Assembly: GCA_032622095.1 (NCBI GenBank) | Contig: CP136062.1 | Coordinates: 155,986,875-156,050,874, forward strand | From: Siphonodentalium dalli | Taxonomy: Eukaryota; Mollusca; Scaphopoda; Gadilida; Siphonodentaliidae | DNA: 64,000 nucleotides | Direction: 5' to 3' | Shown here: positions 112 to 64,000 of the stretch, in pieces | How positions within the stretch are numbered: position 1 is the stretch's first letter | Layout of the letters: every line of letters begins with the position of its first letter | The notes under the pieces: model-generated | What the model saw: only the letters and a program-made list of their open reading frames with translations | The model's database searches: none | What the model was told of the DNA's origin: nothing | Translations under genes and position numbers: made by a program

Positions 112-114
112 ATG

Positions 115-34900: not shown

Positions 34901-36464
34901 AATATTTGGGCACCTGAATGGGATTTTGGGCTCTATTCAAGGGGGATATTTGTTTTTTTTAATGGTTAAATTTGTATATTTAACTGGAATTGGGTCCTGT
35001 AAAGGTATATACTTCTAGGTCTCCTAGTGTTTTTGGAAATATCTGCATCAGTATAAGAAGATTTGCAAAAGTTTGGGCTCCTTAGTGGGTTTTAAGGGTA
35101 TGGAGACAGCCCAACACCCACAGCACCCATGACAATTCAAGTTAAATTGGTATATTTAACTTGAATTGGGCCATATGACCCATTATATGTATCTACTTCC
35201 AACACTTTTGTTGTTTGTGGATAGGTATGCATCTATGCAAATGGTTTGCACAAAGTTTGGGCTCCTCAGTAGGTTTTAAGGGTATTGAGACAGCCCAACA
35301 CCCACAGCACCCATGATAAAACCATACAGCACCCGTGCCTATGAAAACATATTTCTGAGTCAGCCATCTCTCAGACGATACCCATTCTGTAAATGATTCC
35401 ACATTTCACTCTAGAATATATAGAGGCAATGGGAAAAAAATATTTGGGCACCTGAATGGGATTTTGGGCTCTATTCAAGGGGGATATTTGTTTTTTTTAA
35501 TGGTTAAATTGGTATATTTAACTGGAATTGGGTCCTGTAAAGGTATATACTTCTAGGTCTCCTAGTGTTTTTGGAAATATCTGCATCAGTATAAGAAGAT
35601 TTGCAAAAGTTTGGGCTCCTTAGTGGGTTTTAAGGGTATGGAGACAGCCCAACACCCACAGCACCCATGACAATTCAAGTTAAATTGGTATATTTAACTT
35701 TAATTGGGCCATATGACCCATTATATGTATCTACTTCCAACACTTTTGTTGTTTGTGGATAGGTATGCATCTATGCAAATGGTTTGCACAAAGTTTGGGC
35801 TCCTCAGTGGGTTTTAAGGGTATTGAGACAGCCCAACACCCACAGCACCCATGATAAAACCATACAGCACCCGTGCCTATGAAAACATATTTCTGAATCA
35901 GCCATCTCTCAGACTATACTCATTCTGTAAATGATTCCATATTTCACTCTAGAATATATAGAGGCAATGGGAAAAAAATATTTGGGCACCTGAATGGGAT
36001 TTTGGGCTCTATTCAGGGGGGATATTTGGTTTTTTTAATGGTTAAATTTGTATATTTAACTGGAATTGGGTCCTGTAAAGGTATATACTTCTAGGTCTCC
36101 TAGTGTTTTTGGAAATATCTGCATCAGTATAAGAAGATTTGCAAAAGTTTGGGCTCCTTAGTGGGTTTTAAGGGTATGGAGACAGCCCAACACCCACAGC
36201 ACCCATGACAATTCAAGTTAAATTGGTATATTTAACTTGAATTGGGCCATATGACCCATTATATGTATCTACTTCCAACACTTTTGTTGTTTGTGGATAG
36301 GTATGCATCTATGCAAATGGTTTGCACAAAGTTTGGGCTCCTCAGTAGGTTTTAAGGGTATTGAGACAGCCCAACACCCACAGCACCCATGATAAAACCA
36401 TACAGCACCCGTGCCTATGAAAACATATTTCTGAGTCAGCCATCTCTCAGACTATACCCATTCT
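28932..36464. repeat. Alternating dimers and irregular six-unit blocks
   Basis: Starts are 28932, 29470, 30008, 30546, 31084, 31622, 32160, 32699, 33237, 33775, 34313, 34851, 35389 and 35927. The ccatatttc and ctctcgaat types alternate at 28932-31083 as a 1,076-bp dimer. Two blocks then share the order ccatatttc, ctctcgaat, ccatatttc with a BamHI-type ggatcc (31225 and 34454) and cagtagg, then caagggggat. They lie 3,229 bp apart (30008 and 33237). The second block lacks the gggaaacaaat monomer present at 32160. Confidence 0.8.
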
Positions 36465-39400: not shown

Positions 39401-42400
39401 GGTATGGAGACAGCCCAACACCCACAGCACCCATGACAATTCAAGTTAAATTGGTATATTTAACTTGAATTGGGCCATATGACTCATTATATGTATCTAC
39501 TTCCAACACTTTTGTTGTTTGTGGATAGGTATGCATCTATGCAAATGGTTTGCATAAAGTTTGGGCTCCTCAGTGGGTTTTAAGGGTATTGAGACAGCCC
39601 AACACCCACAGCACCCATGATAAAACCATACAGCACCCGTGCCTATGAAAACATATTTCTTAATCAGCCATCTCTCAGACTATACTCATTCTGTAAATGA
39701 TTCCATATTTCACTCTAGAATATATAGAGGCAATGGGAAAAAAATATTTGGGCACCTGAATGGGATTTTGGGCTCTATTCAGGGGGGATATTTGGGTTTT
39801 TTAATGGTTAAATTGGTATATTTAACTGGAATTGGGTCCTTTAAAGGTATATACTTCTAGGTCTCCTAGTGTTTTTGGAAATATCTGCATCAGTATAAGA
39901 AGATTTGCAAAAGTTTGGGCTCCTTAGTGGGTTTTAAGGGTATGGAGACAGCCCAACACCCACAGCTCCCATGACAATTCAAGTTAAATTGGTATATTTA
40001 ACTTGAATTGGGCCATATGACCTATTATATGTATCTACTTCCAACACTTTTGTTGTTTATGGATAGGTATGCATCTATGCAAATGGTTTGCACAAAGTTT
40101 GGTCTCCTCAGTGGGTTTTAAGGGTATTGAGACAGCCCAACACCCACAGCACCCATGATAAAACCATACAGCACCCGTGCCTATGAAAACATATTTCTGA
40201 ATCAGCCATCTCTCAGACTATACTCATTCTGTAAATGATTCCACATTTCACTCTAGAATATATAGAGGCAATGGGAAACAAATATTTGGGCACCTGAATG
40301 GGATTTTGGGCTCTATTCAGGAGGGATATTTGGTTTTTTTAATGGTTAAATTTGTATATTTAACTGGAATTGGGTCCTGTAAAGGTATATACTTCTAGGT
40401 CTCCTAGTGTTTTTGGAAATATCTGCATCAGTATAAGAAGATTTGCAAAAGTTTGGGCTCCTTAGTGGGTTTTAAGGGTATGGAGACAGCCCAACACCCA
40501 CAGCACCCATGACAATTCAAGTTAAATTGGTATATTTAACTTGAATTGGGCCATATGACCCATTATATGTATCTACTTCCAACACTTTTGTTGTTTGTGG
40601 ATAGGTATGCATCTATGCAAATGGTTTGCACAAAGTTTGGGCTCCTCAGTAGGTTTTAAGGGTATTGAGACAGCCCAACACCCACAGCACCCATGATAAA
40701 ACCATACAGCACCCGTGCCTATGAAAACATATTTCTGAGTCAGCCATCTCTCAGACTATACCCATTCTGTAAATGATTCCACATTTCACTCTAGAATATA
40801 TAGAGGCAATGGGAAAAAAATATTTGGGCACCTGAATGGGATTTTGGGCTCTATTCAAGGGGGATATTTGTTTTTTTTAATGGTTAAATTGGTATATTTA
40901 ACTGGAATTGGGTCCTGTAAAGGTATATACTTCTAGGTCTCCTAGTGTTTTTGGAAATATCTGCATCAGTATAAGAAGATTTGCAAAAGTTTGGGCTCCT
41001 TAGTGGGTTTTAAGGGTATGGAGACAGCCCAACACCCACAGCACCCATGACAATTCAAGTTAAATTGGTATATTTAACTTTAATTGGGCCATATGACCCA
41101 TTATATGTATCTACTTCCAACACTTTTGTTGTTTATGGATAGGTATGCATCTATGCAAATGGTTTGCACAAAGTTTGGTCTCCTCAGTGGGTTTTAAGGG
41201 TATTGAGACAGCCCAACACCCACAGCACCCATGATAAAACCATACAGCACCCGTGCCTATGAAAACATATTTCTGAATCAGCCATCTCTCAGACTATACT
41301 CATTCTGTAAATGATTCCACATTTCACTCTAGAATATATAGAGGCAATGGGAAACATATATTTGGGCACCTGAATGGGATTTTGGGCTCTATTCAGGAGG
41401 GATATTTGGTTTTTTTAATGGTTAAATTTGTATATTTAACTGGAATTGGGTCCTGTAAAGGTATATACTTCTAGGTCTCCTAGTGTTTTTGGAAATATCT
41501 GCATCAGTATAAGAAGATTTGCAAAAGTTTGGGATCCGTAGTGGGTTTTAAGGGTATGGAGACAGCCCAACACCCACAGCACCCATGACAATTCAAGTTA
41601 AATTGGTATATTTAACTTGAATTGGGCCATATGACTCATTATATGTATCTACTTCCAACACTTTTGTTGTTTGTGGATAGGTATGCATCTATGCAAATGG
41701 TTTGCATAAAGTTTGGGCTCCTCAGTGGGTTTTAAGGGTATTGAGACAGCCCAACACCCACAGCACCCATGATAAAACCATACAGCACCCGTGCCTATGA
41801 AAACATATTTCTTAATCAGCCATCTCTCAGACTATACTCATTCTGTAAATGATTCCATATTTCACTCTAGAATATATAGAGGCAATGGGAAAAAAATATT
41901 TGGGCACCTGAATGGGATTTTGGGCTCTATTCAGGGGGGATATTTGGTTTTTTTAATGGTTAAATTGGTATATTTAACTGGAATTGGGTCCTTTAAAGGT
42001 ATATACTTCTAGGTCTCCTAGTGTTTTTGGAAATATCTGCATCAGTATAAGAAGATTTGCAAAAGTTTGGGCTCCTTAGTGGGTTTTAAGGGTATGGAGA
42101 CAGCCCAACACCCACAGCACCCATGACAATTCAAGTTAAATTGGTATATTTAACTTGAATTGGGCCATATGACCTATTATATGTATCTACTTCCAACACT
42201 TTTGTTGTTTATGGATAGGTATGCATCTATGCAAATGGTTTGCACAAAGTTTGGTCTCCTCAGTGGGTTTTAAGGGTATTGAGACAGCCCAACACCCACA
42301 GCACCCATGATAAAACCATACAGCACCCGTGCCTATGAAAACATATTTCTGAATCAGCCATCTCTCAGACTATACTCATTCTGTAAATGATTCCACATTT

Positions 42401-44534
42401 CACTCTAGAATATATAGAGGCAATGGGAAACAAATATTTGGGCACCTGAATGGGATTTTGGGCTCTATTCAGGAGGGATATTTGGTTTTTTTAATGGTTA
42501 AATTTGTAAATTTAACTGGAATTGGGTCCTGTAAAGGTATATACTTCTAGGTCTCCTAGTTTTTTTGGAAATATCTGCATCAGTATAAAAAGATTTGCAA
42601 AAGTTTGGGCTCCTTAGTGGGTTTTAAGGGTATGGAGACAGCCCAACACCCACAGCACCCATGACAATTCAAGTTAAATTGGTATATTTAACTTGAATTG
42701 GGCCATATGACCCATTATATGTATCTACTTCCAACACTTTTGTTGTTTGTGGATAGGTATGCATCTATGCAAATGGTTTGCACAAAGTTTGGGCTCCTCA
42801 GTAGGTTTTAAGGGTATTGAGACAGCCCAACACCCACAGCACCCATGATAAAACCATAGAGCACCCGTGCCTATGAAAACATATTTCTGAGTCAGCCATC
42901 TCTCAGACTATACCCATTCTGTAAATGATTCCACATTTCACTCTAGAATATATAGAGGCAATGGGAAAAAAATATTTGGGCACCTGAATGGGATTTTGGT
43001 CTCTATTCAAGGGGGATATTTGTTTTTTTTAATGGTTAAATTGGTATATTTAACTGGAATTGGGTCCTGTAAAGGTATATACTTCTAGGTCTCCTAGTGT
43101 TTTTGGAAATATCTGCATCAGTATAAGAAGATTTGCAAAAGTTTGGGCTCCTTAGTGGGTTTTAAGGGTATGAAGACAGCCCAACACCCACAGCACCCAT
43201 GACAATTCAAGTTAAATTGGTATATTTAACTTTAATTGGGCCATATGACCCATTATATGTATCTACTTCCAACACTTTTGTTGTTTATGGATAGGTATGC
43301 ATCTATGCAAATGGTTTGCACAAAGTTTGGTCTCCTCAGTGGGTTTTAAGGGTATTGAGACAGCCCAACACCCACAGCACCCATGATAAAACCATACAGC
43401 ACCCGTGCCTATGAAAACATATTTCTGAATCAGCCATCTCTCAGACTATACTCATTCTGTAAATGATTCCACATTTCACTCTAGAATATACAGAGGCAAT
43501 GGGAAACATATATTTGGGCACCTGAATGGGATTTTGGGCTCTATTCAGGAGGGATATTTGGTTTTTTTAATGGTTAAATTTGTATATTTAACTGGAATTG
43601 GGTCCTGTAAAGGTATATACTTCTAGGTCTCCTAGTGTTTTTGGAAATATCTGCATCAGTATAAGAAGATTTGCAAAAGTTTGGGCTCCGTAGTGGGTTT
43701 TAAGGGTATGGAGACAGCCCAACACCCACAGCACCCATGACAATTCAAGTTAAATTGGTATATTTAACTTGAATTGGGCCATATGACTCATTATATGTAT
43801 CTACTTCCAACACTTTTGTTGTTTGTGGATAGGTATGCATCTATGCAAATGGTTTGCATAAAGTTTGGGCTCCTCAGTGGGTTTTAAGGGTATTGAGACA
43901 GCCCAACACCCACAGCACCCATGATAAAACCATACAGCACCCGTGCCTATGAAAACATATTTCTTAATCAGCCATCTCTCAGACTATACTCATTCTGTAA
44001 ATGATTCCATATTTCACTCTAGAATATATAGAGGCAATGGGAAAAAAATATTTGGGCACCTGAATGGGATTTTGGGCTCTATTCAGGGGGGATATTTGGT
44101 TTTTTTAATGGTTAAATTTGTATATTTAACTGGAATTGGGTCCTTTAAAGGTATATACTTCTAGGTCTCCTAGTGTTTTTGGAAATATCTGCATCAGTAT
44201 AAGAAGATTTGCAAAAGTTTGGGCTCCGTAGTGGGTTTTAAGGGTATGGAGACAGCCCAACACCCACAGCACCCATGACAATTCAAGTTAAATTGGTATA
44301 TTTAACTTGAATTGGGCCATATGACTCATTATATGTATCTACTTCCAACACTTTTGTTGTTTGTGGATAGGTATGCATCTATGCAAATGGTTTGCATAAA
44401 GTTTGGGCTCCTCAGTGGGTTTTAAGGGTATTGAGACAGCCCAACACCCACAGCACCCATGATAAAACCATACAGCACCCGTGCCTATGAAAACATATTT
44501 CTTAATCAGCCATCTCTCAGACTATACTCATTCT
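36465..44534. repeat. 4-mer HOR of 2,152 bp
   Basis: Three whole copies lie at 37003-39154, 39155-41306 and 41307-43458, preceded by a monomer of the fourth type (36465) and followed by a partial copy (43459-44534). The positions are: gggaaacatat with caggaggg, ccgtagtgg, gcataaag and cttaatc; ccatatttc with cctttaaag, gacctatt and ggtctcc; gggaaacaaat with caggaggg and cagtagg; and caagggggat with actttaatt, gtttatgg and ggtctcc. Every spacing is exactly 538, the most regular stretch in the window. Confidence 0.93.
43997..44534. repeat. Hybrid monomer ending the 4-mer domain
   Basis: The left part has ccatatttc and cctttaaag of the second 4-mer position. The right part has ccgtagtgg, gactcatt, gcataaag and the cttaatc of the first position. 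The switch falls between about 44150 and 44227. It looks like an unequal crossover or conversion joint inside segment A, and it marks where the 4-mer order stops. Confidence 0.8.
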
Positions 44535-47500
44535 GTAAATGATTCCATATTTCACTCTAGAATATATAGAGGCAATGGGAAAAAAATATTTGGGCACCTG
44601 AATGGGATTTTGGGCTCTATTCAGGGGGGATATTTGGTTTTTTTAATGGTTAAATTGGTATATTTAACTGGAATTGGATCCTTTAAAGGTATATACTTCT
44701 AGGTCTCCTAGTGTTTTTGGAAATATCTGCATCAGTATAAGAAGATTTGCAAAAGTTTGGGCTCCTTAGTGGGTTTTAAGGGTATGGAGACAGCCCAACA
44801 CCCACAGCACCCATGACAATTCAAGTTAAATTGGTATATTTAACTTGAATTGGGCCATATGACCCATTATATGTATCTACTTCCAACACATTTGTTGTTT
44901 GTGGATAGGTATGCATCTATGCAAATGGTTTGCACAAAGTTTGGGCTCCTCAGTAGGTTTTAAGGGTATTGAGACAGCCCAACACCCACAGCACCCATGA
45001 TAAAACCATACAGCACCCGTGCCTATGAAAACATATTTCTGAGTCAGCCATCTCTCAGACTATACCCATTCTGTAAATGATTCCACATTTCACTCTAGAA
45101 TATATAGAGGCAATGGGAAAAAAATATTTGGGCACCTGAATGGGATTTTGGGCTCTATTCAAGGGGGATATTTGTTTTTTTTAATGGTTAAATTGGTATA
45201 TTTAACTGGAATTGGGTCCTTTAAAGGTATATACTTCTAGGTCTCCTAGTGTTTTTGGAAATATCTGCATCAGTATAAGAAGATTTGCAAAAGTTTGGGC
45301 TCCTTAGTGGGTTTTAAGGGTATGGAGACAGCCCAACACCCACAGCACCCATGACAATTCAAGTTAAATTGGTATATTTAACTTTAATTGGGCCATATGA
45401 CCCATTATATGTATCTACTTCCAACACTTTTGTTGTTTATGGATAGGTATGCATCTATGCAAATGGTTTGCACAAAGTTTGGTCTCCTCAGTGGGTTTTA
45501 AGGGTATTGAGACAGCCCAACACCCACAGCACCCATGATAAAACCATACAGCACCCGTGCCTATGAAAACATATTTCTGAATCAGCCATCTCTCAGACTA
45601 TACTCATTCTGTAAATGATTCCACATTTCACTCTAGAATATATAGAGGCAATGGGAAACAAATATTTGGGCACCTGAATGGGATTTTGGGCTCTATTCAG
45701 GAGGGATATTTGGTTTTTTTAATGGTTAAATTTGTATATTTAACTGGAATTGGGTCCTGTAAAGGTATATACTTCTAGGTCTCCTAGTGTTTTTGGAAAT
45801 ATCTGCATCAGTATAAGAAGATTTGCAAAAGTTTGGGCTCCTTAGTGGGTTTTAAGGGTATGGAGACAGCCCAACACCCACAGCACCCATGACAATTCAA
45901 GTTAAATTGGTATATTTAACTTGAATTGGGCCATATGACTCATTATATGTATCTACTTCCAACACTTTTGTTGTTTGTGGATAGGTATGCATCTATGCAA
46001 ATGGTTTGCACAAAGTTTGGGCTCCTCAGTGGGTTTTAAGGGTATTGAGACAGCCCAACACCCACAGCACCCATGATAAAACCATACAGCACCCGTGCCT
46101 ATGAAAACATATTTCTTAATCAGCCATCTCTCAGACTATACTCATTCTGTAAATGATTCCATATTTCACTCTAGAATATATAGAGGCAATGGGAAAAAAA
46201 TATTTGGGCACCTGAATGGGATTTTGGGCTCTATTCAGGGGGGAAATTTGGGTTTTTTAATGGTTAAATTTGTATATTTAACTGGAATTGGGTCCTGTAA
46301 AGGTATATACTTCTAGGTCTCCTAGTGTTTTTGGAAATATCTGCATCAGTATAAGAAGATTTGCAAAAGTTTGGGCTCCTTAGTGGGTTTTAAGGGTATG
46401 GAGACAGCCCAACACCCACAGCACCCATGACAATTCAAGTTAAATTGGTATATTTAACTTGAATTGGGCCATATGACCCATTATATGTATCTACTTCCAA
46501 CACTTTTGTTGTTTGTGGATAGGTATGCATCTATGCAAATGGTTTGCACAAAGTTTGGGCTCCTCAGTGGGTTTTAAGGGTATTGAGACAGCCCAACACC
46601 CACAGCACCCATGATAAAACCATACAGCACCCGTGCCTATGAAAACATATTTCTGAGTCAGCCATCTCTCAGACTATACCCATTCTGTAAATGATTCCAC
46701 ATTTCACTCTAGAATATATAGAGGCAATGGGAAAAAAATATTTGGGCACCTGAATGGGATTTTGGGCTCTATTCAGGGGGGATATTTGTTTTTTTTAATG
46801 GTTAAATTGGTATATTTAACTGGAATTGGGTCCTGTAAAGGTATATACTTCTAGGTCTCCTAGTGTTTTTGGAAATATCTGCATCAGTATAAGAAGATTT
46901 GCAAAAGTTTGGGCTCCTTAGTGGGTTTTAAGGGTATGGAGACAGCCCAACGCCCACAGCACCCATGACAATTCAAGTTAAATTGGTATATTTAACTTGA
47001 ATTGGGCCATATGACCCATTATATGTATCTACTTCCAACTCTTTTGTTGTTTGTGGATAGGTATGCATCTATGCAAATGGTTTGCACAAAGTTTGGGCTC
47101 CTCAGTGGGTTTTAAGGATATTGAGACAGCCCAACACCCACAGCACCCATGATAAAACCATACAGCACCCGTGCCTATGAAAACATATTTCTTAATCAGC
47201 CATCTCTCAGACTATACTCATTCTGTAAATGATTCCATATTTCACTCTAGAATATATAGAGGCAATGGGAAAAAAATATTTGGGCACCTGAATGGGATTT
47301 TGGGCTCTATTCAGGGGGGATATTTGTTTTTTTTAATGGTTAAATTGGTATATTTAACTGGAATTGGGTCCTTTAAAGGTATATACTTCTAGGTCTCCTA
47401 GTGTTTTTGGAAATATCTGCATCAGTATAAGAAGATTTGCAAAAGTTTGGGCTCCTTAGTGGGTTTTAAGGGTATGGAGACAGCCCAACACCCACAGCAC

Positions 47501-50500
47501 CCATGACAATTCAAGTTAAATTGGTATATTTAACTTGAATTGGGCCATATGACCCATTATATGTATCTACTTCCAACACTTTTGTTGTTTGTGGATAGGT
47601 ATGCATCTATGCAAATGGTTTGCACAAAGTTTGGGCTCCTCAGTAGGTTTTAAGGGTATTGAGACAGCCCAACACCCACAGCACCCATGATAAAACCATA
47701 CAGCACCCGTGCCTATGAAAACATATTTCTGAGTCAGCCATCTCTCAGACTATACCCATTCTGTAAATGATTCCACATTTCACTCTAGAATATATAGAGG
47801 CAATGGGAAAAAAATATTTGGGCACCTGAATGGGATTTTGGACTCTATTCAAGGGGGATATTTGTTTTTTTTAATGGTTAAATTGGTATATTTAACTGGA
47901 ATTGGGTCCTGTAAAGGTATATACTTCTAGGTCTCCTAGTGTTTTTGGAAATATCTGCATCAGTATAAGAAGATTTGCAAAAGTTTGGGCTCCTTAGTGG
48001 GTTTTAAGGGTATGGAGACAGCCCAACACCCACAGCACCCATGACAATTCAAGTTAAATTGGTATATTTAACTTTAATTGGGCCATATGACCCATTATAT
48101 GTATCTACTTCCAACACTTTTGTTGTTTATGGATAGGTATGCATCTATGCAAATGGTTTGCACAAAGTTTGGTCTCCTCAGTGGGTTTTAAGGGTATTGA
48201 GACAGCCCAACACCCACAGCACCCATGATAAAACCATACAGCACCCGTGCCTATGAAAACATATTTCTGAATCAGCCATCTCTCAGACTATACTCATTCT
48301 GTAAATGATTCCACATTTCACTCTAGAATATATAGAGGCAATGGGAAACAAATATTTGGGCACCTGAATGGGATTTTGGGCTCTATTCAGGAGGGATATT
48401 TGGTTTTTTTAATGGTTAAATTTGTATATTTAACTGGAATTGGGTCCTGTAAAGGTATATACTTCTAGGTCTCCTAGTGTTTTTGGAAATATCTGCATCA
48501 GTATAAGAAGATTTGCAAAAGTTTGGGCTCCTTAGTGGGTTTTAAGGGTATGGAGACAGCCCAACACCCACAGCACCCATGACAATTCAAGTTAAATTGG
48601 TATATTTAACTTGAATTGGGCCATATGACTCATTATATGTATCTACTTCCAACACTTTTGTTGTTTGTGGATAGGTATGCATCTATGCAAATGGTTTGCA
48701 CAAAGTTTGGGCTCCTCAGTGGGATTTAAGGGTATTGAGACAGCCCAACACCCACAGCACCCATGATAAAACCATACAGCACCCGTGCCTATGAAAACAT
48801 ATTTCTTAATCAGCCATCTCTCAGACTATACTCATTCTGTAAATGATTCCATATTTCACTCTAGAATATATAGAGGCAATGGGAAAAAAATATTTGGGCA
48901 CCTGAATGGGATTTTGGGCTCTATTCAGGGGGGATATTTGGTTTTTTTAATGGTTAAATTTGTATATTTAACTGGAATTGGGTCCTGTAAAGGTATATAC
49001 TTCTAGGTCTCCTAGTGTTTTTGGAAATATCTGCATCAGTATAAGAAGATTTGCAAAAGTTTGGGCTCCTTAGTGGGTTTAAGGGTATGGAGACAGCCCA
49101 ACACCCACAGCACCCATGACAATTCAAGTTAAATTGGTATATTTAACTTGAATTGGGCCATATGACCCATTATATGTATCTACTTCCAACACTTTTGTTG
49201 TTTGTGGATAGGTATGCATCTATGCAAATGGTTTGCACAAAGTTTGGGCTCCTCAGTGGGTTTTAAGGGTATTGAGACAGCCCAACACCCACAGCACCCA
49301 TGATAAAACCATACAGCACCCGTGCCTATGAAAACATATTTCTGAGTCAGCCATCTCTCAGACTATACCCATTCTGTAAATGATTCCACATTTCACTCTA
49401 GAATATATAGAGGCAATGGGAAAAAAATATTTGGGCACCTGAATGGGATTTTGGGCTCTATTCAGGGGGGATATTTGGTTTTTTTAATGGTTAAATTTGT
49501 ATATTTAACTGGAATTGGGTCCTGTAAAGGTATATACTTCTAGGTCTCCTAGTGTTTTTGGAAATATCTGCATCAGAATAAGAAGATTTGCAAAAGTTTG
49601 GGCTCCTTAGTGGGTTTTAAGGGTATGGAGACAGCCCAACACCCACAGCACCCATGACAATTCAAGTTAAATTGGTATATTTAACTTTAATTGGGCCATA
49701 TGACCCATTATATGTATCTACTTCCAACACTTTTGTTGTTTATGGATAGGTATGCATCTATGCAAATGGTTTGCACAAAGTTTGGTCTCCTCAGTGGGTT
49801 TTAAGGGTATTGAGACAGCCCAACACCCACAGCACCCATGATAAAACCATACAGCACCCGTGCCTATGAAAACATATTTCTGAATCAGCCATCTCTCAGA
49901 CTATACTCATTCTGTAAATGATTCCACATTTCACTCTAGAATATATAGAGGCAATGGGAAACAAATATTTGGGCACCTGAATGGGATTTTGGGCTCTATT
50001 CAGGAGGGATATTTGGTTTTTTTAATGGTTAAATTTGTATATTTAACTGGAATTGGGTCCTGTAAAGGTATATACTTCTAGGTCTCCTAGTGTTTTTGGA
50101 AATATCTGCATCAGTATAAGAAGATTTGCAAAAGTTTGGGCTCCTTAGTGGGTTTTAAGGGTATGGAGACAGCCCAACACCCACAGCACCCATGACAATT
50201 CAAGTTAAATTGGTATATTTAACTTGAATTGGGCCATATGACTCATTATATGTATCTACTTCCAACACTTTTGTTGTTTGTGGATAGGTATGCATCTATG
50301 CAAATGGTTTGCACAAAGTTTGGGCTCCTCAGTGGGATTTAAGGGTATTGAGACAGCCCAACACCCACAGCACCCATGATAAAACCATACAGCACCCGTG
50401 CCTATGAAAACATATTTCTTAATCAGCCATCTCTCAGACTATACTCATTCTGTAAATGATTCCATATTTCACTCTAGAATATATAGAGGCAATGGGAAAA

Positions 50501-53500
50501 AAATATTTGGGCACCTGAATGGGATTTTGGGCTCTATTCAGGGGGGATATTTGGTTTTTTTAATGGTTAAATTTGTATATTTAACTGGAATTGGGTCCTG
50601 TAAAGGTATATACTTCTAGGTCTCCTAGTGTTTTTGGAAATATCTGCATCAGTATAAGAAGATTTGCAAAAGTTTGGGCTCCTTAGTGGGTTTAAGGGTA
50701 TGGAGACAGCCCAACACCCACAGCACCCATGACAATTCAAGTTAAATTGGTATATTTAACTTGAATTGGGCCATATGACCCATTATATGTATCTACTTCC
50801 AACACTTTTGTTGTTTGTGGATAGGTATGCATCTATGCAAATGGTTTGCACAAAGTTTGGGCTCCTCAGTGGGTTTTAAGGGTATTGAGACAGCCCAACA
50901 CCCACAGCACCCATGATAAAACCATACAGCACCCGTGCCTATGAAAACATATTTCTGAGTCAGCCATCTCTCAGACTATACCCATTCTGTAAATGATTCC
51001 ACATTTCACTCTAGAATATATAGAGGCAATGGGAAAAAAATATTTGGGCACCTGAATGGGATTTTGGGCTCTATTCAGGGGGGATATTTGGTTTTTTTAA
51101 TGGTTAAATTTGTATATTTAACTGGAATTGGGTCCTGTAAAGGTATATACTTCTAGGTCTCCTAGTGTTTTTGGAAATATCTGCATCAGTATAAGAAGAT
51201 TTGCAAAAGTTTGGGCTCCTTAGTGGGTTTTAAGGGTATGGAGACAGCCCAACACCCACAGCACCCATGACAATTCAAGTTAAATTGGTATATTTAACTT
51301 GAATTGGGCCATATGACCCATTATATGTATCTACTTCCAACACTTTTGTTGTTTGTGGATAGGTATGCATCTATGCAAATGGTTTGCACAGAGTTTGGGC
51401 TCCTCAGTGGGTTTTAAGGGTATTGAGACAGCCCAACACCCACAGCACCCATGGTAAAACCATACAGCACCCGTGCCTATGAAAACATATTTCTGAGTCA
51501 GCCATCTCTCAGACTATACCCATTCTGTAAATGATTCCACATTTCACTCTAGAATATATAGAGGTAATGGGGAAAAAATATTTGGGCACCTGAATGGGAT
51601 TTTGGGCTCTATTCGGGGGGGATATTTGGTTTTTTTAATGGTTAAATTTGTATATTTAACTGGAATTGGGTCCTGTAAAGGTATATACTTCTAGGTCTCC
51701 TAGTGTTTTTGGAAATATCTGCATCAGAATAAGAAGATTTGCAAAAGTTTGGGCTCCTTAGTGGGTTTTAAGGGTATGGAGACAGCCCAACACCCACAGC
51801 ACCCATGACAATTCAAGTTAAATTGGTATATTTAACTTGAATTGGGCCATATGACCCATTATATGTATCTACTTCCAACATTTTGTTGTTTGTGGATAGG
51901 TATGCATCTATGCAAATGGTTTGCACAAAGTTTGGGCTCCTCAGTGGGTTTTAAGGGTATTGAGACAGCCCAACACCCACAGCACCCATGATAAAACCAT
52001 ACAGCACCCGTGCCTATGAAAACATATTTCTGAGTCAGCCATCTCTCAGACTATACCCATTCTGTAAATGATTCCACATTTCACTCTAGAATATATAGAG
52101 GCAATGGGAAAAAAATATTTGGGCACCTGAATGGGATTTTGGGCTCTATTCAGAGGGGATATTTGGTTTTTTTAATGGTTAAATTGGTATATTTAACTGG
52201 AATTGGGTCCTGTAAAGGTATATACTTCTAGGTCTCCTAGTGTTTTTGGAAATATCTGCATCAGTATAAGAAGATTTGCAAAAGTTTGGGCTCCTTAGTG
52301 GGTTTTAAGGGTATGGAGACAGCCCAACACCCACAGCACCCATGACAATTCAAGTTAAATTGGTATATTTAACTTGAATTGGGCCATATGACCCATTATA
52401 TGTATCTACTTCCAACACTTTTGTTGTTTGTGGATAGGTATGCATCTATGCAAATGGTTTGCACAAAGTTTGGGCTCCTCAGTGGGTTTTAAGGGTATTG
52501 AGACAGCCCAACACCCACAGCACCCATGATAAAACCATACAGCACCCGTGCCTATGAAAACATATTTCTGAGTCAGCCATCTCTCAGACTATACCCATTC
52601 TGTAAATGATTCCACATTTCACTCTAGAATATATAGAGGCAATGGGAAAAAAATATTTGGGCACCTGAATGGGATTTTGGGCTCTATTCAGGGGGGATAT
52701 TTGGTTTTTTTAATGGTTAAATTTGTATATTTAACTGGAATTGGGTCCTGTAAAGGTATATACTTCTAGGTCTCCTAGTGTTTTTGGAAATATCTGCATC
52801 AGTATAAGTAGATTTGCAAAAGTTTGGGCTCCTTAGTGGGTTTTAAGGGTATGAAGACAGCCCAACACCCACAGCACCCATGACAATTCAAGTTAAATTG
52901 GTATATTTAACTTTAATTGGGCCATATGACCCATTATATGTATCTACTTCCAACACTTTTGTTGTTTATGGATAGGTATGCATCTATGCAAATGGTTTGC
53001 ACAAAGTTTGGTCTCCTCAGTGGGTTTTAAGGGTATTGAGACAGCCCAACACCCACAGCACCCATGATAAAACCATACAGCACCCGTGCCTATGAAAACA
53101 TATTTCTGAATCAGCCATCTCTCAGACTATACTCATTCTGTAAATGATTCCACATTTCACTCTAGAATATATAGAGGCAATGGGAAACAAATATTTGGGC
53201 ACCTGAATGGGATTTTGGGCTCTATTCAGGAGGGATATTTGGTTTTTTTAATGGTTAAATTTGTATATTTAACTGGAATTGGGTCCTGTAAAGGTATATA
53301 CTTCTAGGTCTCCTAGTGTTTTTGGAAATATCTGCATCAGTATAAGAAGATTTGCAAAAGTTTGGGCTCCTTAGTGGGTTTTAAGGGTATGGAGACAGCC
53401 CAACACCCACAGCACCCATGACAATTCAAGTTAAATTGGTATATTTAACTTGAATTGGGCCATATGACCCATTATATGTATCTACTTCCAACACTTTTGT

Positions 53501-56500
53501 TGTTTGTGGATAGGTATGCATCTATGCAAATGGTTTGCACAAAGTTTGGGCTCCTCAGTGGGTTTTAAGGGTATTGAGACAGCCCAACACCCACAGCACC
53601 CATGATAAAACCATACAGCACCCGTGCCTATGAAAACATATTTCTGAGTCAGCCATCTCTCAGACTTTACCCATTCTGTAAATGATTCCACATTTCACTC
53701 TAGAATATATAGAGGCAATGGGAAAAAAATATTTGGGCACCTGAATGGGATTTTGGGCTCTATTCAGAGGGGATATTTGGTTTTTTTAATGGTTAAATTG
53801 GTATATTTAACTGGAATTGGGTCCTGTAAAGGTATATACTTCTAGGTCTCCTAGTGTTTTTGGAAATATCTGCATCAGTATAAGAAGATTTGCAAAAGTT
53901 TGGGCTCCTTAGTGGGTTTTAAGGGTATGGAGACAGCCCAACACCCACAGCACCCATGACAATTCAAGTTAAATTGGTATATTTAACTTGAATTGGGCCA
54001 TATGACCCATTATATGTATCTACTTCCAACACTTTTGTTGTTTGTGGATAGGTATGCATCTATGCAAATGGTTTGCACAAAGTTTGGGCTCCTCAGTGGG
54101 TTTTAAGGGTATTGAGACAGCCCAACACCCACAGCACCCATGATAAAACCATACAGCACCCGTGCCTATGAAAACATATTTCTGAATCAGCCATCTCTCA
54201 GACTATACTCATTCTGTAAATGATTCCACATTTCACTCTAGAATATATAGAGGCAATGGGAAACAAATATTTGGGCACCTGAATGGGATTTTGGGCTCTA
54301 TTCAGGAGGGATATTTGGTTTTTTTAATGGTTAAATTTGTATATTTAACTGGAATTGGGTCCTGTAAAGGTATATACTTCTAGGTCTCCTAGTGTTTTTG
54401 GAAATATCTGCATCAGTATAAGAAGATTTGCAAAAGTTTGGGCTCCTTAGTGGGTTTTAAGGGTATGGAGACAGCCCAACACCCACAGCACCCATGACAA
54501 TTCAAGTTAAATTGGTATATTTAACTTGAATTGGGCCATATGACTCATTATATGTATCTACTTCCAACACTTTTGTTGTTTGTGGATAGGTATGCATCTA
54601 TGCAAATGGTTTGCATAAAGTTTGGGCTCCTCAGTGGGTTTTAAGGGTATTGAGACAGCCCAACACCCACAGCACCCATGATAAAACCATACAGCACCCG
54701 TGCCTATGAAAACATATTTCTTAATCAGCCATCTCTCAGACTATACTCATTCTGTAAATGATTCCATATTTCACTCTAGAATATATAGAGGCAATGGGAA
54801 AAAAATATTTGGGCACCTGAATGGGATTTTGGGCTCTATTCAGGGGGGATATTTGGTTTTTTTAATGGTTAAATTGGTATATTTAACTGGAATTGGGTCC
54901 TTTAAAGGTATATACTTCTAGGTCTCCTAGTGTTTTTGGAAATATCTGCATCAGTATAAGAAGATTTGCAAAAGTTTGGGCTCCTTAGTGGGTTTTAAGG
55001 GTATGGAGACAGCCCAACACCCACAGCACCCATGACAATTCAAGTTAAATTGGTATATTTAACTTGAATTGGGCCATATGACCCATTATATGTATCTACT
55101 TCCAACACCTTTGTTGTTTGTGGATAGGTATGCATCTATGCAAATGGTTTGCACAAAGTTTGGGCTCCTCAGTAGGTTTTAAGGGTATTGAGACAGCCCA
55201 ACACCCACAGCACCCATGATAAAACCATACAGCACCCGTGCCTATGAAAACATATTTCTGAGTCAGCCATCTCTCAGACTATACCCATTCTGTAAATGAT
55301 TCCACATTTCACTCTAGAATATATAGAGGCAATGGGAAAAAAATATTTGGGCACCTGAATGGGATTTTGGGCTCTATTCAAGGGGGATATTTGTTTTTTT
55401 TAATGGTTAAATTGGTATATTTAACTGGAATTGGGTCCTGTAAAGGTATATACTTCTAGGTCTCCTAGTGTTTTTGGAAATATCTGCATCAGTATAAGAA
55501 TATTTGCAAAAGTTTGGGCTCCTTAGTGGGTTTTAAGGGTATGGAGACAGCCCAACACCCACAGCACCCATGACAATTCAAGTTAAATTGGTATATTTAA
55601 CTTTAATTGGGCCATATGACCCATTATATGTATCTACTTCCAACACTTTTGTTGTTTATGGATAGGTATGCATCTATGCAAATGGTTTGCACAAAGTTTG
55701 GTCTCCTCAGTGGGTTTTAAGGGTATTGAGACAGCCCAACACCCACAGCACCCATGATAAAACCATACAGCACCCGTGCCTATGAAAACATATTTCTGAA
55801 TCAGCCATCTCTCAGACTATACTCATTCTGTAAATGATTCCACATTTCACTCTAGAATATATAGAGGCAATGGGAAACAAATATTTGGGCACCTGAATGG
55901 GATTTTGGGCTCTATTCAGGAGGGATATTTGGTTTTTTTAATGGTTAAATTTGTATATTTAACTGGAATTGGGTCCTGTAAAGGTATATACTTCTAGGTC
56001 TCCTAGTGTTTTTGGAAATATCTGCATCAGTATAAGAAGATTTGCAAAAGTTTGGGCTCCTTAGTGGGTTTTAAGGGTATGGAGACAGCCCAACACCCAC
56101 AGCACCCATGACAATTCAAGTTAAATTGGTATATTTAACTTGAATTGGGCCATATGACTCATTATATGTATCTACTTCCAACACTTTTGTTGTTTGTGGA
56201 TAGGTATGCATCTATGCAAATGGTTTGCACAAAGTTTGGGCTCCTCAGTGGGTTTTAAGGGTATTGAGACAGCCCAACACCCACAGCACCCATGATAAAA
56301 CCATACAGCACCCGTGCCTATGAAAACATATTTCTTAATCAGCCATCTCTCAGACTATACCCATTCTGTAAATGATTCCACATTTCACTCTAGAATATAT
56401 AGAGGCAATGGGAAAAAAATATTTGGGCACCTGAATGGGATTTTGGGCTCTATTCAGGGGGGATATTTGGTTTTTTTAATGGTTAAATTTGTATATTTAA

Positions 56501-58519
56501 CTGGAATTGGGTCCTGTAAAGGTATATACTTCTAGGTCTCCTAGTGTTTTTGGAAATATCTGCATCAGTATAAGAAGATTTGCAAAAGTTTGGGCTCCTT
56601 AGTGGGTTTTAAGGGTATGGAGACAGCCCAACGCCCACAGCACCCACGACAATTCAAGTTAAATTGGTATATTTAACTTGAATTGGGCCATATGACCCAT
56701 TATATGTATCTACTTCCAACACTTTTGTTGTTTGTGGATAGGTATGCATCTATGCAAATGGTTTGCACAAAGTTTGGGCTCCTCAGTAGGTTTTAAGGGT
56801 ATTGAGACAGCCCAACACCCACAGCACCCATGATAAAACCATACAGCACCCGTGCCTATGAAAACATATTTCTGAGTCAGCCATATCTCAGACTATACCC
56901 ATTCTGTAAATGATTCCACATTTCACTCTAGAATATATAGAGGCAATGGGAAAAAAATATTTGGGCACCTGAATGGGATTTTGGGCTCTATTCAAGGGGG
57001 ATATTTGTTTTTTTTAATGGTTAAATTGGTATATTTAACTGGAATTGGGTCCTGTAAAGGTATATACTTCTAGGTCTCCTAGTGTTTTTGGAAATATCTG
57101 CATCAGTATAAGAAGATTTGCAAAAGTTTGGGCTCCTTAGTGGGTTTTAAGGGTATGGAGACAGCCCAACACCCACAGCACCCATGACAATTCAAGTTAA
57201 ATTGGTATATTTAACTTTAATTGGGCCATATGACCCATTATATGTATCTACTTCCAACACTTTTGTTGTTTATGGATAGGTATGCATCTATGCAAATGGT
57301 TTGCACAAAGTTTGGTCTCCTCAGTGGGTTTTAAGGGTATTGAGACAGCCCAACACCCACAGCACCCATGATAAAACCATACAGCACCCGTGCCTATGAA
57401 AACATATTTCTGAATCAGCCATCTCTCAGACTATACTCATTCTGTAAATGATTCCACATTTCACTCTAGAATATATAGAGGCAATGGGAAACAAATATTT
57501 GGGCACCTGAATGGGATTTTGGGCTCTATTCAGGAGGGATATTTGGTTTTTTTAATGGTTAAATTTGTATATTTAACTGGAATTGGGTCCTGTAAAGGTA
57601 TATACTTCTAGGTCTCCTAGTGTTTTTGGAAATATCTGCATCAGTATAAGAAGATTTGCAAAAGTTTGGGCTCCTTAGTGGGTTTTAAGGGTATGGAGAC
57701 AGCCCAACACCCACAGCACCCATGACAATTCAAGTTAAATTGGTATATTTAACTTGAATTGGGCCATATGACTCATTATATGTATCTACTTCCAACACTT
57801 TTGTTGTTTGTGGATAGGTATGCATCTATGCAAATGGTTTGCACAAAGTTTGGGCTCCTCAGTGGGTTTTAAGGGTATTGAGACAGCCCAACACCCACAG
57901 CACCCATGATAAAACCATACAGCACCCGTGCCTATGAAAACATATTTCTTAATCAGCCATCTCTCAGACTATACTCATTCTGTAAATGATTCCATATTTC
58001 ACTCTAGAATATATAGAGGCAATGGGAAAAAAATATTTGGGCACCTGAATGGGATTTTGGGCTCTATTCAGGGGGGATATTTGGTTTTTTTAATGGTTAA
58101 ATTTGTATATTTAACTGGAATTGGGTCCTGTAAAGGTATATACTTCTAGGTCTCCTAGTGTTTTTGGAAATATCTGCATCAGTATAAGAAGATTTGCAAA
58201 AGTTTGGGCTCCTTAGTGGGTTTTAAGGGTATGGAGACAGCCCAACACCCACAGGACCCATGACAATTCAAGTTAAATTGGTATATTTAACTTGAATTGG
58301 GCCATATGACCCATTATATGTATCTACTTCCAACACTTTTGTTGTTTGTGGATAGGTATGCATCTATGCAAATGGTTTGCACAAAGTTTGGGCTCCTCAG
58401 TGGGTTTTAAGGGTATTGAGACAGCCCAACACCCACAGCACCCATGATAAAACCATACAGCACCCGTGCCTATGAAAACATATTTCTGAGTCAGCCATCT
58501 CTCAGACTATACCCATTCT
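44535..58519. repeat. Trimer-dominated HOR domain
   Basis: A trimer of ccatatttc/cctttaaag/cagtagg, then caagggggat/actttaatt/ggtctcc, then gggaaacaaat/caggaggg, recurs at 44535, 47225 and 54754, with a variant at 56368. Two adjacent trimers, 48301-49913 and 49914-51526, share gggatttaag and a lost T (gtgggtttaagg), so each is 1,613 bp. The stretch 51527-54753 is irregular, with a ggtaatgggg monomer at 51527 that has a lost base in caacatttt. Monomer starts from 44535 step by 538 except 537 at 48839, 50452 and 51527. Confidence 0.85.
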
Positions 58520-61500
58520 GTAAATGATTCCACATTTCACTCTAGAATATATAGAGGCAATGGGAAAAAAATATTTGGGCACCTGAATGGGATTTTGGGC
58601 TCTATTCAGGGGGGATATTTGGTTTTTTTAATGGTTAAATTTGTATATTTAACTGGAATTGGGTCCTGTAAAGGTATATACTTCTAGGTCTCCTAGTGTT
58701 TTTGGAAATATCTGCATCAGTATAAGAAGATTTGCAAAAGTTTGGGCTCCTTAGTGGGTTTTAAGGGTATGGAGACAGCCCAACACCCACAGCACCCATG
58801 ACAATTCAAGTTAAATTGGTATATTTAACTTGAATTGGGCCATATGACCCATTATATGTATCTACTTCCAACACTTTTGTTGTTTGTGGATAGGTATGCA
58901 TCTATGCAAATGGTTTGCACAAAGTTTGGGCTCCTCAGTGGGTTTTAAGGGTATTGAGACAGCCCAACACCCACAGCACCCATGATAAAACCATACAGCA
59001 CCCGTGCCTATGAAAACATATTTCTGAGTCAGCCATCTCTCAGACTATACCCATTCTGTAAATGATTCCACATTTCACTCTAGAATATATAGAGGCAATG
59101 GGAAAAAAATATTTGGGCACCTGAATGGGATTTTGGGCTCTATTCAGGGGGGATATATGGTTTTTTTAATGGTTAAATTGGTATATTTAACTGGAATTGG
59201 GTCCTGTAAAGGTATATACTCTAGGTCTCCTAGTGTTTTTGGAAATATCTGCATCAGTATAAGAAGATTTGCAAAAGTTTGGGCTCCTTAGTGGGTTTTA
59301 AGGGTATGGAGACAGCCCAACACCCACAGCACCCATGACAATTCAAGTTAAATTGGTATATTTAACTTGAATTGGGCCATATAACCCATTATATGTATCT
59401 ACTTCCAACACTTTTGTTGTTTGTGGATAGGTATGCATCTATGCAAATGGTTTGCACAAAGTTTGGGCTCCTCAGTGGGTTTTAAGGGTATTGAGACAGC
59501 CCAACACCCACAGCACCCATGGTAAAACCATACAGCACCCGTGCCTATGAAAACATATTTCTGAGTCAGCCATCTCTCAGACTATACCCATTCTGTAAAT
59601 GATTCCACATTTCACTCTAGAATATATAGAGGTAATGGGGAAAAAATATTTGGGCACCTGAATGGGATTTTGGGCTCTATTCGGGGGGGATATTTGTTTT
59701 TTTTAATGGTTAAATTTGTATATTTAACTGGAATTGGGTCCTGTAAAGGTATATACTTCTAGGTCTCCTAGTGTTTTTGGAAATATCTGCATCAGTATAA
59801 GAAGATTTGCAAAAGTTTGGGCTCCTTAGTGGGTTTTAAGGGTATGGAGACAGCCCAACACCCACAGCACCCATGACAATTCAAGTTAAATTGGTATATT
59901 TAACTTGAATTGGGCCATATGACCCATTATATGTATCTACTTCCAACACTTTTGTTGTTTGTGGATAGGTATGCATCTATGCAAATGGTTTGCACAAAGT
60001 TTGGGCTCCTCAGTGGGTTTTAAGGGTATTGAGACAGCCCAACACCCACAGCACCCATGATAAAACCATACAGCACCCGTGCCTATGAAAACATATTTCT
60101 GAGTCAGCCATCTCTCAGACTATACCCATTCTGTAAATGATTCCACATTTCACTCTAGAATATATAGAGGCAATGGGAAAAAAAATATTTGGGCACCTGA
60201 ATGGGATTTTGGGCTCTATTCAGAGGGGATATTTGGTTTTTTTAATGGTTAAATTGGTATATTTAACTGGAATTGGGTCCTGTAAAGGTATATACTTCTA
60301 GGTCTCCTAGTGTTTTTGGAAATATCTGCATCAGTATAAGAAGATTTGCAAAAGTTTGGGCTCCTTAGTGGGTTTTAAGGGTATGGAGACAGCCCAACAC
60401 CCACAGCACCCATGACAATTCAAGTTAAATTGGTATATTTAACTTGAATTGGGCCATATAACCCATTATATGTATCTACTTCCAACACTTTTGTTGTTTG
60501 TGGATAGGTATGCATCTATGCAAATGGTTTGCACAAAGTTTGGGCTCCTCAGTGGGTTTTAAGGGTATTGAGACAGCCCAACACCCACAGCACCCATGGT
60601 AAAACCATACAGCACCCGTGCCTATGAAAACATATTTCTGAGTCAGCCATCTCTCAGACTATACCCATTCTGTAAATGATTCCACATTTCACTCTAGAAT
60701 ATATAGAGGTAATGGGGAAAAAATATTTGGGCACCTGAATGGGATTTTGGGCTCTATTCGGGGGGGATATTTGTTTTTTTTAATGGTTAAATTTGTATAT
60801 TTAACTGGAATTGGGTCCTGTAAAGGTATATACTTCTAGGTCTCCTAGTGTTTTTGGAAATATCTGCATCAGTATAAGAAGATTTGCAAAAGTTTGGGCT
60901 CCTTAGTGGGTTTTAAGGGTATGGAGACAGCCCAACACCCACAGCACCCATGACAATTCAAGTTAAATTGGTATATTTAACTTGAATTGGGCCATATGAC
61001 CCATTATATGTATCTACTTCCAACACTTTTGTTGTTTGTGGATAGGTATGCATCTATGCAAATGGTTTGCACAAAGTTTGGGCTCCTCAGTGGGTTTTAA
61101 GGGTATTGAGACAGCCCAACACCCACAGCACCCATGATAAAACCATACAGCACCCGTGCCTATGAAAACATATTTCTGAGTCAGCCATCTCTCAGACTAT
61201 ACCCATTCTGTAAATGATTCCACATTTCACTCTAGAATATATAGAGGCAATGGGAAAAAAAATATTTGGGCACCTGAATGGGATTTTGGGCTCTATTCAG
61301 AGGGGATATTTGGTTTTTTTAATGGTTAAATTGGTATATTTAACTGGAATTGGGTCCTGTAAAGGTATATACTTCTAGGTCTCCTAGTGTTTTTGGAAAT
61401 ATCTGCATCAGTATAAGAAGATTTGCAAAAGTTTGGGCTCCTTAGTGGGTTTTAAGGGTATGGAGACAGCCCAACACCCACAGCACCCATGACAATTCAA

Positions 61501-62606
61501 GTTAAATTGGTATATTTAACTTGAATTGGGCCATATGACCCATTATATGTATCTACTTCCAACACTTTTGTTGTTTGTGGATAGGTATGCATCTATGCAA
61601 ATGGTTTGCACAAAGTTTGGGCTCCTCAGTGGGTTTTAAGGGTATTGAGACAGCCCAACACCCACAGCACCCATGATAAAACCATACAGCACCCGTGCCT
61701 ATGAAAACATATTTCTGAGTCAGCCATCTCTCAGACTATACCCATTCTGTAAATGATTCCACATTTCACTCTAGAATATATAGAGGTAATGGGGAAAAAA
61801 TATTTGGGCACCTGAATGGGATTTTGGGCTCTATTCGGGGGGGATATTTGGTTTTTTTAATGGTTAAATTTGTATATTTAACTGGAATTGGGTCCTGTAA
61901 AGGTATATACTTCTAGGTCTCCTAGTGTTTTTGGAAATATCTGCATCAGTATAAGAAGATTTACAAAAGTTTGGGCTCCTTAGTGGGTTTTAAGGGTATG
62001 GAGACAGCCCAACACCCACAGCACCCATGACAATTCAAGTTAAATTGGTATATTTAACTTGAATTGGGCCATATGACCCATTATATGTATCTACTTCCAA
62101 CACTTTTGTTGTTTGTGGATAGGTATGCATCTATGCAAATGGTTTGCACAAAGTTTGGGCTCCTCAGTGGGTTTTAAGGGTATTGAGACAGCCCAACACC
62201 CACAGCACCCATGATAAAACCATACAGCACCCGTGCCTATGAAAACATATTTCTGAGTCAGCCATCTCTCAGACTATACCCATTCTGTAAATGATTCCAC
62301 ATTTCACTCTAGAATATATAGAGGCAATGGGAAAAAAATATTTGGGCACCTGAATGGGATTTTGGGCTCTATTCAGAGGGGATATTTGGTTTTTTTAATG
62401 GTTAAATTGGTATATTTAACTGGAATTGGGTCCTGTAAAGGTATATACTTCTAGGTCTCCTAGTGTTTTTGGAAATATCTGCATCAGTATAAGAAGATTT
62501 GCAAAAGTTTGGGCTCCTTAGTGGGTTTTAAGGGTATGGAGACAGCCCAACACCCACAGCACCCATGACAATTCAAGTTAAATTGGTATATTTAACTTGA
62601 ATTGGG
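58520..62606. repeat. Dimer HOR domain next to the array edge
   Basis: After a plain monomer (58520), dimers start at 59058, 60133 and 61210, with a partial one at 62287. The first monomer carries cagaggggat (59058 instead has gatatatgg) and ttggtat, with ataaccc and catggtaaaac in the first two copies. The second carries ggtaatgggg and cgggggggat. The last two periods are exactly 1,077 bp because both share an extra A in the A run. The homogeneous dimers reach to within a few hundred bases of the decayed edge. Confidence 0.88.
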
Positions 62607-62832
62607 TCATATGACCCATTATAGGTATCTATTTCCAGCACTTTTATAGTTTTTGGATAGGTATGCAACTATGCATCTATACAAATGGTTTGCACAAAGT
62701 TTGGGCTCCACGGTGGGCTTGAAAGTTATGGAGGCAGCCCAACACACACAGCTCCCATGAAAAAAACATACAGCACCCGTGCCTATGAAAACATATTTAT
62801 GAATCGGTGATCTCTCAGACTATACCCATTCT
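62607..62832. repeat. Decayed end of the last 538-type monomer
   Basis: The monomer starting at 62287 matches its neighbours exactly or nearly so up to 62606, then changes fast: gggtcatatg, ataggtatct, atttccagc. It also has an 8-bp gain, with gcaactatgcatctat in place of one atgcatct word. Its total length is 546. It still has both A and B, so it is a 538-type unit whose right part was never homogenised or has drifted. Confidence 0.88.
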
Positions 62833-63175
62833 GAAAATTACTCTACAGTTGACTTTTAGAATATATATAGGCAATGAGATAAAAATTATTTGGGCATCTG
62901 AATGGGATTTTGGGCTTTGGTCAGGGGGAGGGGAATATTTGGGTTTTTTAAAAGTTAAATTGGTATATTTAACGTGAATTGTGACCCATTATAGATTTCT
63001 ACTTCCTGTACTTTTAGTGTTTCATCTGTATAAAAATATGTGCAAAAGTTTGGGCTCCTCAGTGGGTTTTTAGGAGATGATGACAGCCCAACACCCACGG
63101 CACCCATGATGAAACCATACAGCGGCTATGAAAACATATTTCTGGGTCAGTGTTCTCTCAGACTATACCTATTCT
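62833..63175. repeat. Decayed 343-bp unit with a single A/B segment
   Basis: It has segment C (gaaaattactc to about 62950) and then one A/B segment (62954-63109) ending in cacccatgatgaaacc. There is no second copy and no caattcaa junction. The left of the segment is B-like (gacccattatag), and its middle has lost bases between tagtgttt and catctgta. Compared with core monomers it shows many substitutions, for example ggtcagggggagggg in the G tract. Confidence 0.88.
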
Positions 63176-63516
63176 GAAAATTAATCCAGTTTACTTCAGA
63201 ATATATGTAAGCAATGGTAAAACAATTCTTTGGGCACCTGAATAGTATTTTGGGCTCTGGTCAGGGGGAGGGGAATATTTGGGTTTTTTAATAGTTAAGT
63301 TGGTATATTTAACTTGAATTGTGATCCATTATAGATATCAACTTTTAGTGTTTTTGGAAATATATTCATCTGTTTAAGAAGATGTGCAAAAGTTTGGGCT
63401 CCTCAGTGGGTTTTAAGGGAGTGGTGACAGCCCAACACCCACGGCACCCATGATGAAACCATACAGCACCCGTGCCTATAAAATCATTTTTCTGGGTCTC
63501 AGACTATGCCCATTCT
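63176..63516. repeat. Decayed 341-bp unit with a single A/B segment
   Basis: Its single segment, 63294-63453, is a natural mixture: aacttgaattg and gatccattatagatatc on the left are B-like, and tagtgtttttggaaatat with aagaagatgtgcaaaag in the middle is A-like. It shares the long ggtcagggggagggg tract and cacggcaccc with the unit before it. This is the best candidate for the ancestral repeat form. Confidence 0.88.
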
Positions 63517-63815
63517 GAAAATTATATATTTTGGCACCTGGAAGTTATTTTGGGCTCTGGTCAAGGGGAGTGGAATATTAGGAATTTTAATAGTCAAGTT
63601 GGTATATTTAACTTATATTGTGCCATTATTGATATCTACATCCAGGGCTTTTAGTGTTATTGAATAGGTAAGCACCTATGTAAATGATTTCCCGTATTGG
63701 ATTTAAGAGTATGGAGCCAGCCCAACACCCACAGCACCCATGGTAAACCATACAGCATCTGTGCCTATAGAATCATATTTTGTGGTCAGTGTTCAATCAG
63801 ACAACACTCATTTAT
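63517..63815. repeat. Decayed unit of about 299 bp with a single A/B segment
   Basis: It is shortened on both sides: segment C lacks the tctaga region, and the end of the A/B segment lacks the tttgggctcc block (it reads cccgtattggatttaag). It retains gaataggtaagcacctatg followed by aaatg, like the octamer region of B, and ttagtgttattg, like A. The frame at 63472-63654 falls mostly here and reads through repeat sequence, so it is not called as a gene. Confidence 0.8.
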
Positions 63816-64000
63816 GAAACATGATTCCACATATGACTTTAGAGTATAGGCAGGCGATCAACAGAACATATTTTGTTACCTGGAAGGGAATTTGGGCGAG
63901 GGGAGAGGAATATTTGTGTTTTTAATAGCCATATTGGTATTTTAGGCTTAGGAATCAGTCCAACACACATACCACCCATGATAAAACATATGGCACTGGT
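63816..64000. repeat. Strongly decayed unit, cut by the window end
   Basis: It begins gaaacatgattccacat and keeps recognisable pieces (ttacctgg, gaatatttgtg, atattggtatttt), but the middle of the A/B segment is missing, so it passes straight to gtccaacacacat and cacccatgataaaac. It is still satellite-related at the last base, so the repeat continues to the right of the window. Confidence 0.8.

Follow-up and report, generated by a model that had tools for sequence, protein, structure and literature searches.

The window, by which we mean the whole 64,000-bp stretch of DNA analysed here (C2:155986875-156050874, in a genome of 2.23 Gb in nine contigs), probably falls within a copy of a foldback-like DNA transposon, giant in size and apparently non-autonomous. 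We put the probability of this reading, in which a junction within the element keeps an older form of the repeat unit, at roughly 0.7. A 538-bp repeat fills the window and each unit carries two related segments, A and B. Near the right end of the window the repeat changes to units that carry a single segment (S1, S2 and S3; Table 1). The initial annotation took this place for the edge of a satellite array. Rather than the border of an ordinary satellite, it is a fixed internal junction of a dispersed transposon with target duplications. The 983-bp stretch in question yielded 737 first-look candidates, and all 40 places scored, the window among them, match it over near-full length at 96-100% identity; these places are spread over all nine contigs. 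Hence, a unique local array edge is ruled out.

The change from a two-segment core to one-segment units was borne out by both the segment scan and the unit anchor. In the segment scan the alternation of A and B persists to 62,567 (A) and 62,759 (B), and past 62,811 there are three one-segment units. The single segments start at 62,951 (158 bp), 63,292 (161 bp) and 63,591 (152 bp), with spacings of 341 and 299 bp. The unit anchor TCTCTCAGACTATACC shows a spacing of 546 and then 343 bp at the transition, and TRF reports a period of 340 across 62,691-63,467. Beyond 63,815 the decay of the units increases. The annotated unit sizes of 343, 341 and about 299 bp hold for this copy, but the last is partly private to it. 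In all seven further copies examined (L002-L008), S2 measures 170-172 bp and the spacing from S2 to S3 is 307-309 bp. Within the array, irregular spacings break the 538-bp register at 10737-11716, 14406-15385 and 18075-19054 (979 bp each) and at 20129-20840 (711 bp). Three of these four contain a 441-bp component.

Table 1. Features of the window (position 1 is its first base).
Feature	Position	Strand	Details
Left satellite arm, portion: 538-bp two-segment units	1..62264	+	Anchor spacing 537-539; exceptions three of 979 and one of 711
Final two-segment unit, 546 bp	62265..62810	+	A at 62398-62567; divergent B' at 62574-62759 (186 bp)
Final A/B junction, mark of the two-segment unit	62569..62604	+	15-bp inverted-repeat arms
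One-segment unit 1	62833..63175	+	S1 at 62951-63108; anchor, segment scan
One-segment unit 2	63176..63516	+	S2 at 63292-63452, ~9 bp shorter than in seven other copies; segment scan, copy comparison
One-segment unit 3	63517..63815	+	S3 at 63591-63742; segment scan
Onset of decayed tail	63816..64000	+	Beyond the window: more degenerate units, 105-bp repeats, then transposon core

The units S1, S2 and S3 follow the 538-bp array in constant order in all eight loci that were cut out, so their arrangement is not due to chance. In six of these loci the final two-segment unit, with its B', could be identified; in L004 a one-segment A/B chimera stands in that place. The initial annotation had suggested searching the assembly for forms of about 340 bp. 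A pattern across the S1/S2 junction has 185 matches, and no expanded 342-bp array appears among the 100 matches listed. These 100 are all exact and, grouped at a limit of 1.5 kb, make 67 loci (33 with a pair of matches, 34 with a single one); as they are 100 of 185, a third, changed one-segment unit at a locus could be missed. One listed match, C7:144297790, lies 4.7 kb from a two-match pair.

The architecture of the element emerges when copies are compared, which is how the left terminus, the inverted right array and the right terminus were each defined. A left terminal segment (~433 bp) is followed by the left 538-bp array, the old units, a core of ~21 kb, an inverted 538-bp array and a right terminal segment (~386 bp). 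The one-segment junction is thus the inner end of the left arm. Rough first-look searches gave 179 candidates for the left terminus and 181 for the right, and the 40 scored for each are 97-100% and 99-100% identical, respectively. In the three copies examined for both arrays, the left one runs on the plus strand and the right one on the minus strand, forming long inverted tandem-repeat arms. The right array starts at the identical point of the unit in two copies and is present in the third. The terminal inverted repeats are imperfect: about 40 bp pair at 85%, starting ~10 bp inside the left terminus, and the outermost bases are unpaired. Runs of one-segment units occur at one of the four array ends, and each of the other three has one decayed or truncated segment (read by eye in a few copies). 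The copy at C4:90.3 Mb is 41,286 bp long. Another, L093 (C5:167227838-167229595), is an internally deleted miniature of 1,758 bp with both termini, inverted arms back to back and a perfect 8-bp duplication. Two copies carry a ~1.1-1.2-kb insertion at closely similar positions, near where the left terminal segment ends on its inner side (L032:3264-4358, and L097:2266-3496 in the window's copy).

Nineteen copies were read at both ends. Perfect 8-bp target duplications flank 13 of them, for example TAAAAAGT on either side of the C4:90.3-Mb copy, for which an unoccupied paralogous target repeat was found in L009. In four others the flanks are exchanged between the members of two inverted pairs. 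One flank pair needs a 2-bp offset to match (C6:80.86 Mb), and another is a mismatch (C2:184.18 Mb). The duplications tend to the form nAnnnnTn: 13 of 17 carry A at position 2 and 13 of 17 carry T at position 7, although several of these 17 share a single target repeat and are therefore not independent.

The inverted pairs with exchanged duplications lie at C2:149946886-150036789 (L094, L039, L061, L095, L117, L118) and C6:159466430-159611518 (L077-L080, L119, L120). Pieces of 5 kb within the two pairs are 100% and 99.98% identical. Hybrid-element insertion that led to an inversion would account for this, as would exchange between copies of very recent origin; the assembler may instead have mis-oriented the middle segment.

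The element appears to have a strong target preference, because left and right flanks converge on one MITE-like repeat (L009:5741-6260, or C2:156056540-156057059). Of 27 left flanks, 11 have their ends no more than 12 bp apart, at its palindromic centre and in both orientations, and two more hit the repeat elsewhere or in part. On the right, nine of 19 flanks match it; hits in L034 and L071 were chance motif matches and were left out. At C2:184179125-184218618 (L109, L110) both flanks match the same arm of the MITE-like repeat, inverted and with no matching duplication; this is probably a rearranged copy.

Arm length varies widely between copies. We entered 42 left ends (the 40 scored and two added), and 37 of these have a junction on the same strand within 120 kb. 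The distance from left terminus to junction, insertions included, ranges from 764 to 92,113 bp with a median of 7,261 (n=37), and the longest of the 37 belongs to the window's copy. Its left terminus is at C2:155957161 (L097:1862), 29.7 kb before the window. Rightward it loses its likeness to other copies after L009:2833 (C2:156053632). No right arm was found in L009 past 2833 or in five 300-bp probes up to C2:156080299, which are spaced 5 kb apart, so that a short right arm could be missed. Among the 19 copies read at both ends, one measures 1.76 kb and 18 span 26.1-64.3 kb. In the copy with the shortest arm (L096), our reading of the printed sequence finds a single A+B' unit between the left-end B-type segment and S1.

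The array units form subfamilies. In long matches, the units of the copy at C2:107 Mb are 92.6-93.5% like those of the window, and those of two other copies are mostly 97-99% like them. The junction and tail (2.3 kb) are 97.9-100% identical among 12 copies which, together with the 97-100% identity of the scored termini, shows that the spread is recent. Tree distances between the single segments are ~0.085 for S1-S2 and ~0.30 for S3-S2, and the divergence of S1, S2 and S3 thus predates the spread.

How do the single segments relate to A and B? The initial annotation described one of them as B-like on its left and A-like in its middle. At the sites diagnostic for A and B this applies to both S1 (left 1 A and 8 B; middle 11 A and 1 B) and S2 (left 2 A and 7 B; middle 13 A and 2 B). 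Part of the left contrast, by comparison, comes from the window's own A. This A (168-170 bp) has a deletion of 8-9 bp, which makes it look more unlike the single segments on the left than it truly is. A segments in L003, L005, L008 and L096 and one in L024 do not have the deletion; as in the single segments, their sequence there is TGACCCATTATAGGTAT or close to it. Those in L002, L004, L006 and L007 measure 170-171 bp. With the fuller A as reference, S1 and S2 remain B-like in their left part and A-like in their middle at these sites. S3 is mixed (left 3 A and 6 B; middle 4 A and 7 B), and the tail segment T is ambiguous as an outgroup (left 2 A and 4 B; middle 6 A and 5 B). The inner end of the right array retains an A-type relic.

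We built trees from eleven sequences and 210 columns: A and B (two subfamilies of each), B', the B-type segment of the left end, the A-type relic of the right array, S1, S2, S3 and T. Bootstrap values are 97 for A1+A2, 96 for the B group, 92 for S1+S2 and 55 for S1/S2 nearer A. Trees with B next to S1/S2 (AU p=0.225), or with S1/S2 in the broader A group to which the right-array relic belongs (0.118), also pass the AU test.

The single-segment units might be old deletion products of 538-bp units, formed by A/B recombination and later changed by gene conversion. Real A/B deletion products of ~354 bp do exist (L004 at 1249 and L024 at 2635). They are built as the initial annotation had predicted for such recombination, A on the left and B on the right, with A making up the first ~34 bp and B the remainder. 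S1-S3 are unlike them: S1 and S2 are mosaics at the diagnostic sites too, but in the reverse order. S1 also departs from the state common to A and B at 10 of 129 columns, and S2 at 8 of 138 (three shared); neither is therefore of recent origin. In the window the A/B junction CAATTCAAGTTAAATTGGTATATTTAACTTGAATTG is present 117 times at no more than two substitutions (102 exact; the last at 62,569), equal to the count of A segments (117), and is absent at S1-S3. Its first eight bases, CAATTCAA, mirror its last eight, TTGAATTG, and no such bases precede S1-S3. Edge segments inside the A or B clade were the outcome that the initial annotation named as contrary to its proposal. The AU test rejects such nesting: p is 0.010 for S1+S2 within A1/A2, 0.0004 for S1+S2 within B, 0.031 for S3 within B and 0.003 for all three within A. 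Under the SH test, which is more conservative, only S1+S2 within B (0.0047) and all three within A (0.038) are rejected, and S1+S2 within A (0.10) and S3 within B (0.25) are permitted. A simple one-step A/B deletion is therefore rejected as the source of S1-S3, on the build of the deletion products, the AU test and the absent junction, with the SH values above as a reservation. A two-step mosaic with gene conversion could also keep S1 and S2 outside both clades, yet we consider such a history unlikely.

For the order of events, the initial annotation proposed a 342-bp ancestor in which a duplication came before the divergence of the two copies. The AU tests and the deletion products make the ancestor likely. 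The order is less settled, with the best tree (A with S1/S2, B with S3 and T; AU p=0.948) standing against one that unites A and B to the exclusion of all single segments (p=0.305, allowed). As the best tree places S1/S2 nearer A and S3 nearer B, A-type and B-type may have diverged before the 538-bp unit formed. The unit would then be a fusion of two neighbouring one-segment units that were already distinct, and the A-type relic in the right array agrees with this. The key split has a bootstrap of only 55 and the tree with A and B together is still allowed; we give divergence before duplication slightly less than even odds. The tree with A and B together, like the outward decay of the single units, would also suit an ordinary chromosomal satellite whose edge escaped homogenization and kept the ancestor, with A and B arising by duplication and then divergence. 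The best tree groups the segments otherwise, and the location part of this account is refuted, since the supposed edge is one inherited junction common to all 40 scored dispersed places. We regard it as very improbable. There is a good chance that the one-segment units of the transposon preserve a one-segment ancestor of ~342 bp. In the simplest reading, S1 and S2 have retained ancestral states which have disappeared from the left part of A and from the middle of B.

A transposase from elsewhere most likely moved the element as a unit; of this step, the 8-bp target duplications are what we see, and the transposase is presumed. The arms would grow and shrink within each copy, most likely by unequal exchange, which would keep the core units of the arrays alike. 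The range of arm lengths and the copy-specific subfamilies suggest such exchange. The junction units would lie outside it and would therefore be inherited nearly unchanged, keeping the older one-segment form of ~342 bp. A single duplication of a ~176-bp segment most likely gave rise to the 538-bp form, and the mirrored 8 nt where A meets B point to a foldback template switch.

What looks like an array edge may thus be a transposon part inherited by descent, and no independent witness of the history of the array. The element bears on how satellite arrays originate and disperse: many copies of one family, with arms of 0.76-92 kb and one common junction, make array growth, homogenization and unit replacement comparable copy by copy. 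We tentatively propose, as a possibility rather than an expectation, that a giant satellite-armed family transposes arrays of up to tens of kb whole, inserts by preference at the centre of a palindromic MITE-like repeat, and causes chromosome rearrangements through hybrid-element insertion. A single cause would then underlie the dispersal of satellites, the birth of arrays and small inversions in this genome, and frozen junctions would record the step from 342 to 538 bp.

Of the known elements, Tetris is closest in build, Galileo in the exchanged duplications and Cg_HINE in the scattering of satellites. Tetris, a foldback element of Drosophila virilis, is described there as apparently non-autonomous, with tandem repeats in inverted arms, no coding capacity found, 8-9 bp target duplications in three complete copies, and a variable repeat number with arrays that expand within the element (PMC4079207). 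Its unit is ~220 bp, its arrays reach 66 copies and it is reported in D. virilis and D. americana (PMC4079207). Our element shares the apparent non-autonomy, the inverted tandem-repeat arms, the 8-bp duplications, the variable arrays and the lack of detected coding capacity. It differs in its 538-bp unit with a 342-bp relic, in a distance from left terminus to junction of up to 92 kb and in 18 copies of 26-64 kb; the likeness described here is one of build.

Galileo, of the P superfamily, has long, internally repetitive inverted arms, inverted copy pairs with exchanged target duplications, 7-bp duplications and a known transposase (PMC2775673). Our element is like it in the arms and in the inverted pairs. 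Unlike Galileo, its duplications are 8 bp long and tend to nAnnnnTn, and none of the 11 ORFs scanned, of 37 listed (at least 80 aa), gave a Pfam match at cut-off (best E=0.2), so that no transposase was found. Duplications of 8 bp are also typical of hAT elements, with the consensus nTnnnnAn. The tendency to nAnnnnTn (not all duplications being independent) argues against the hAT superfamily.

The Cg_HINE Helentrons of Crassostrea gigas are non-autonomous and carry and scatter satellite-like arrays, with the repeats placed centrally (PMC7492417). Our element likewise is apparently non-autonomous and scatters satellite arrays through the genome, but it has two inverted arrays and 8-bp target duplications. 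Helentrons are not known to make target duplications, and these two features exclude an element of the Helentron/HINE type. The open-licence literature that we searched yielded no giant foldback element with arms of comparable size.

The core of ~21 kb, from the junction to the right array, holds several tandem and palindromic repeats, with periods of 105, 173, 182 and 22 bp, some of them inverted. An ORF of 134 aa (L034:4914-5315), which by eye looks retroelement-like, matched no Pfam family at cut-off. The core also contains two arrays of ~22-bp repeats built on the palindrome CCTGATATATCAGG, at L034:5423-5835 and 7562-7990, which are mutually inverted.
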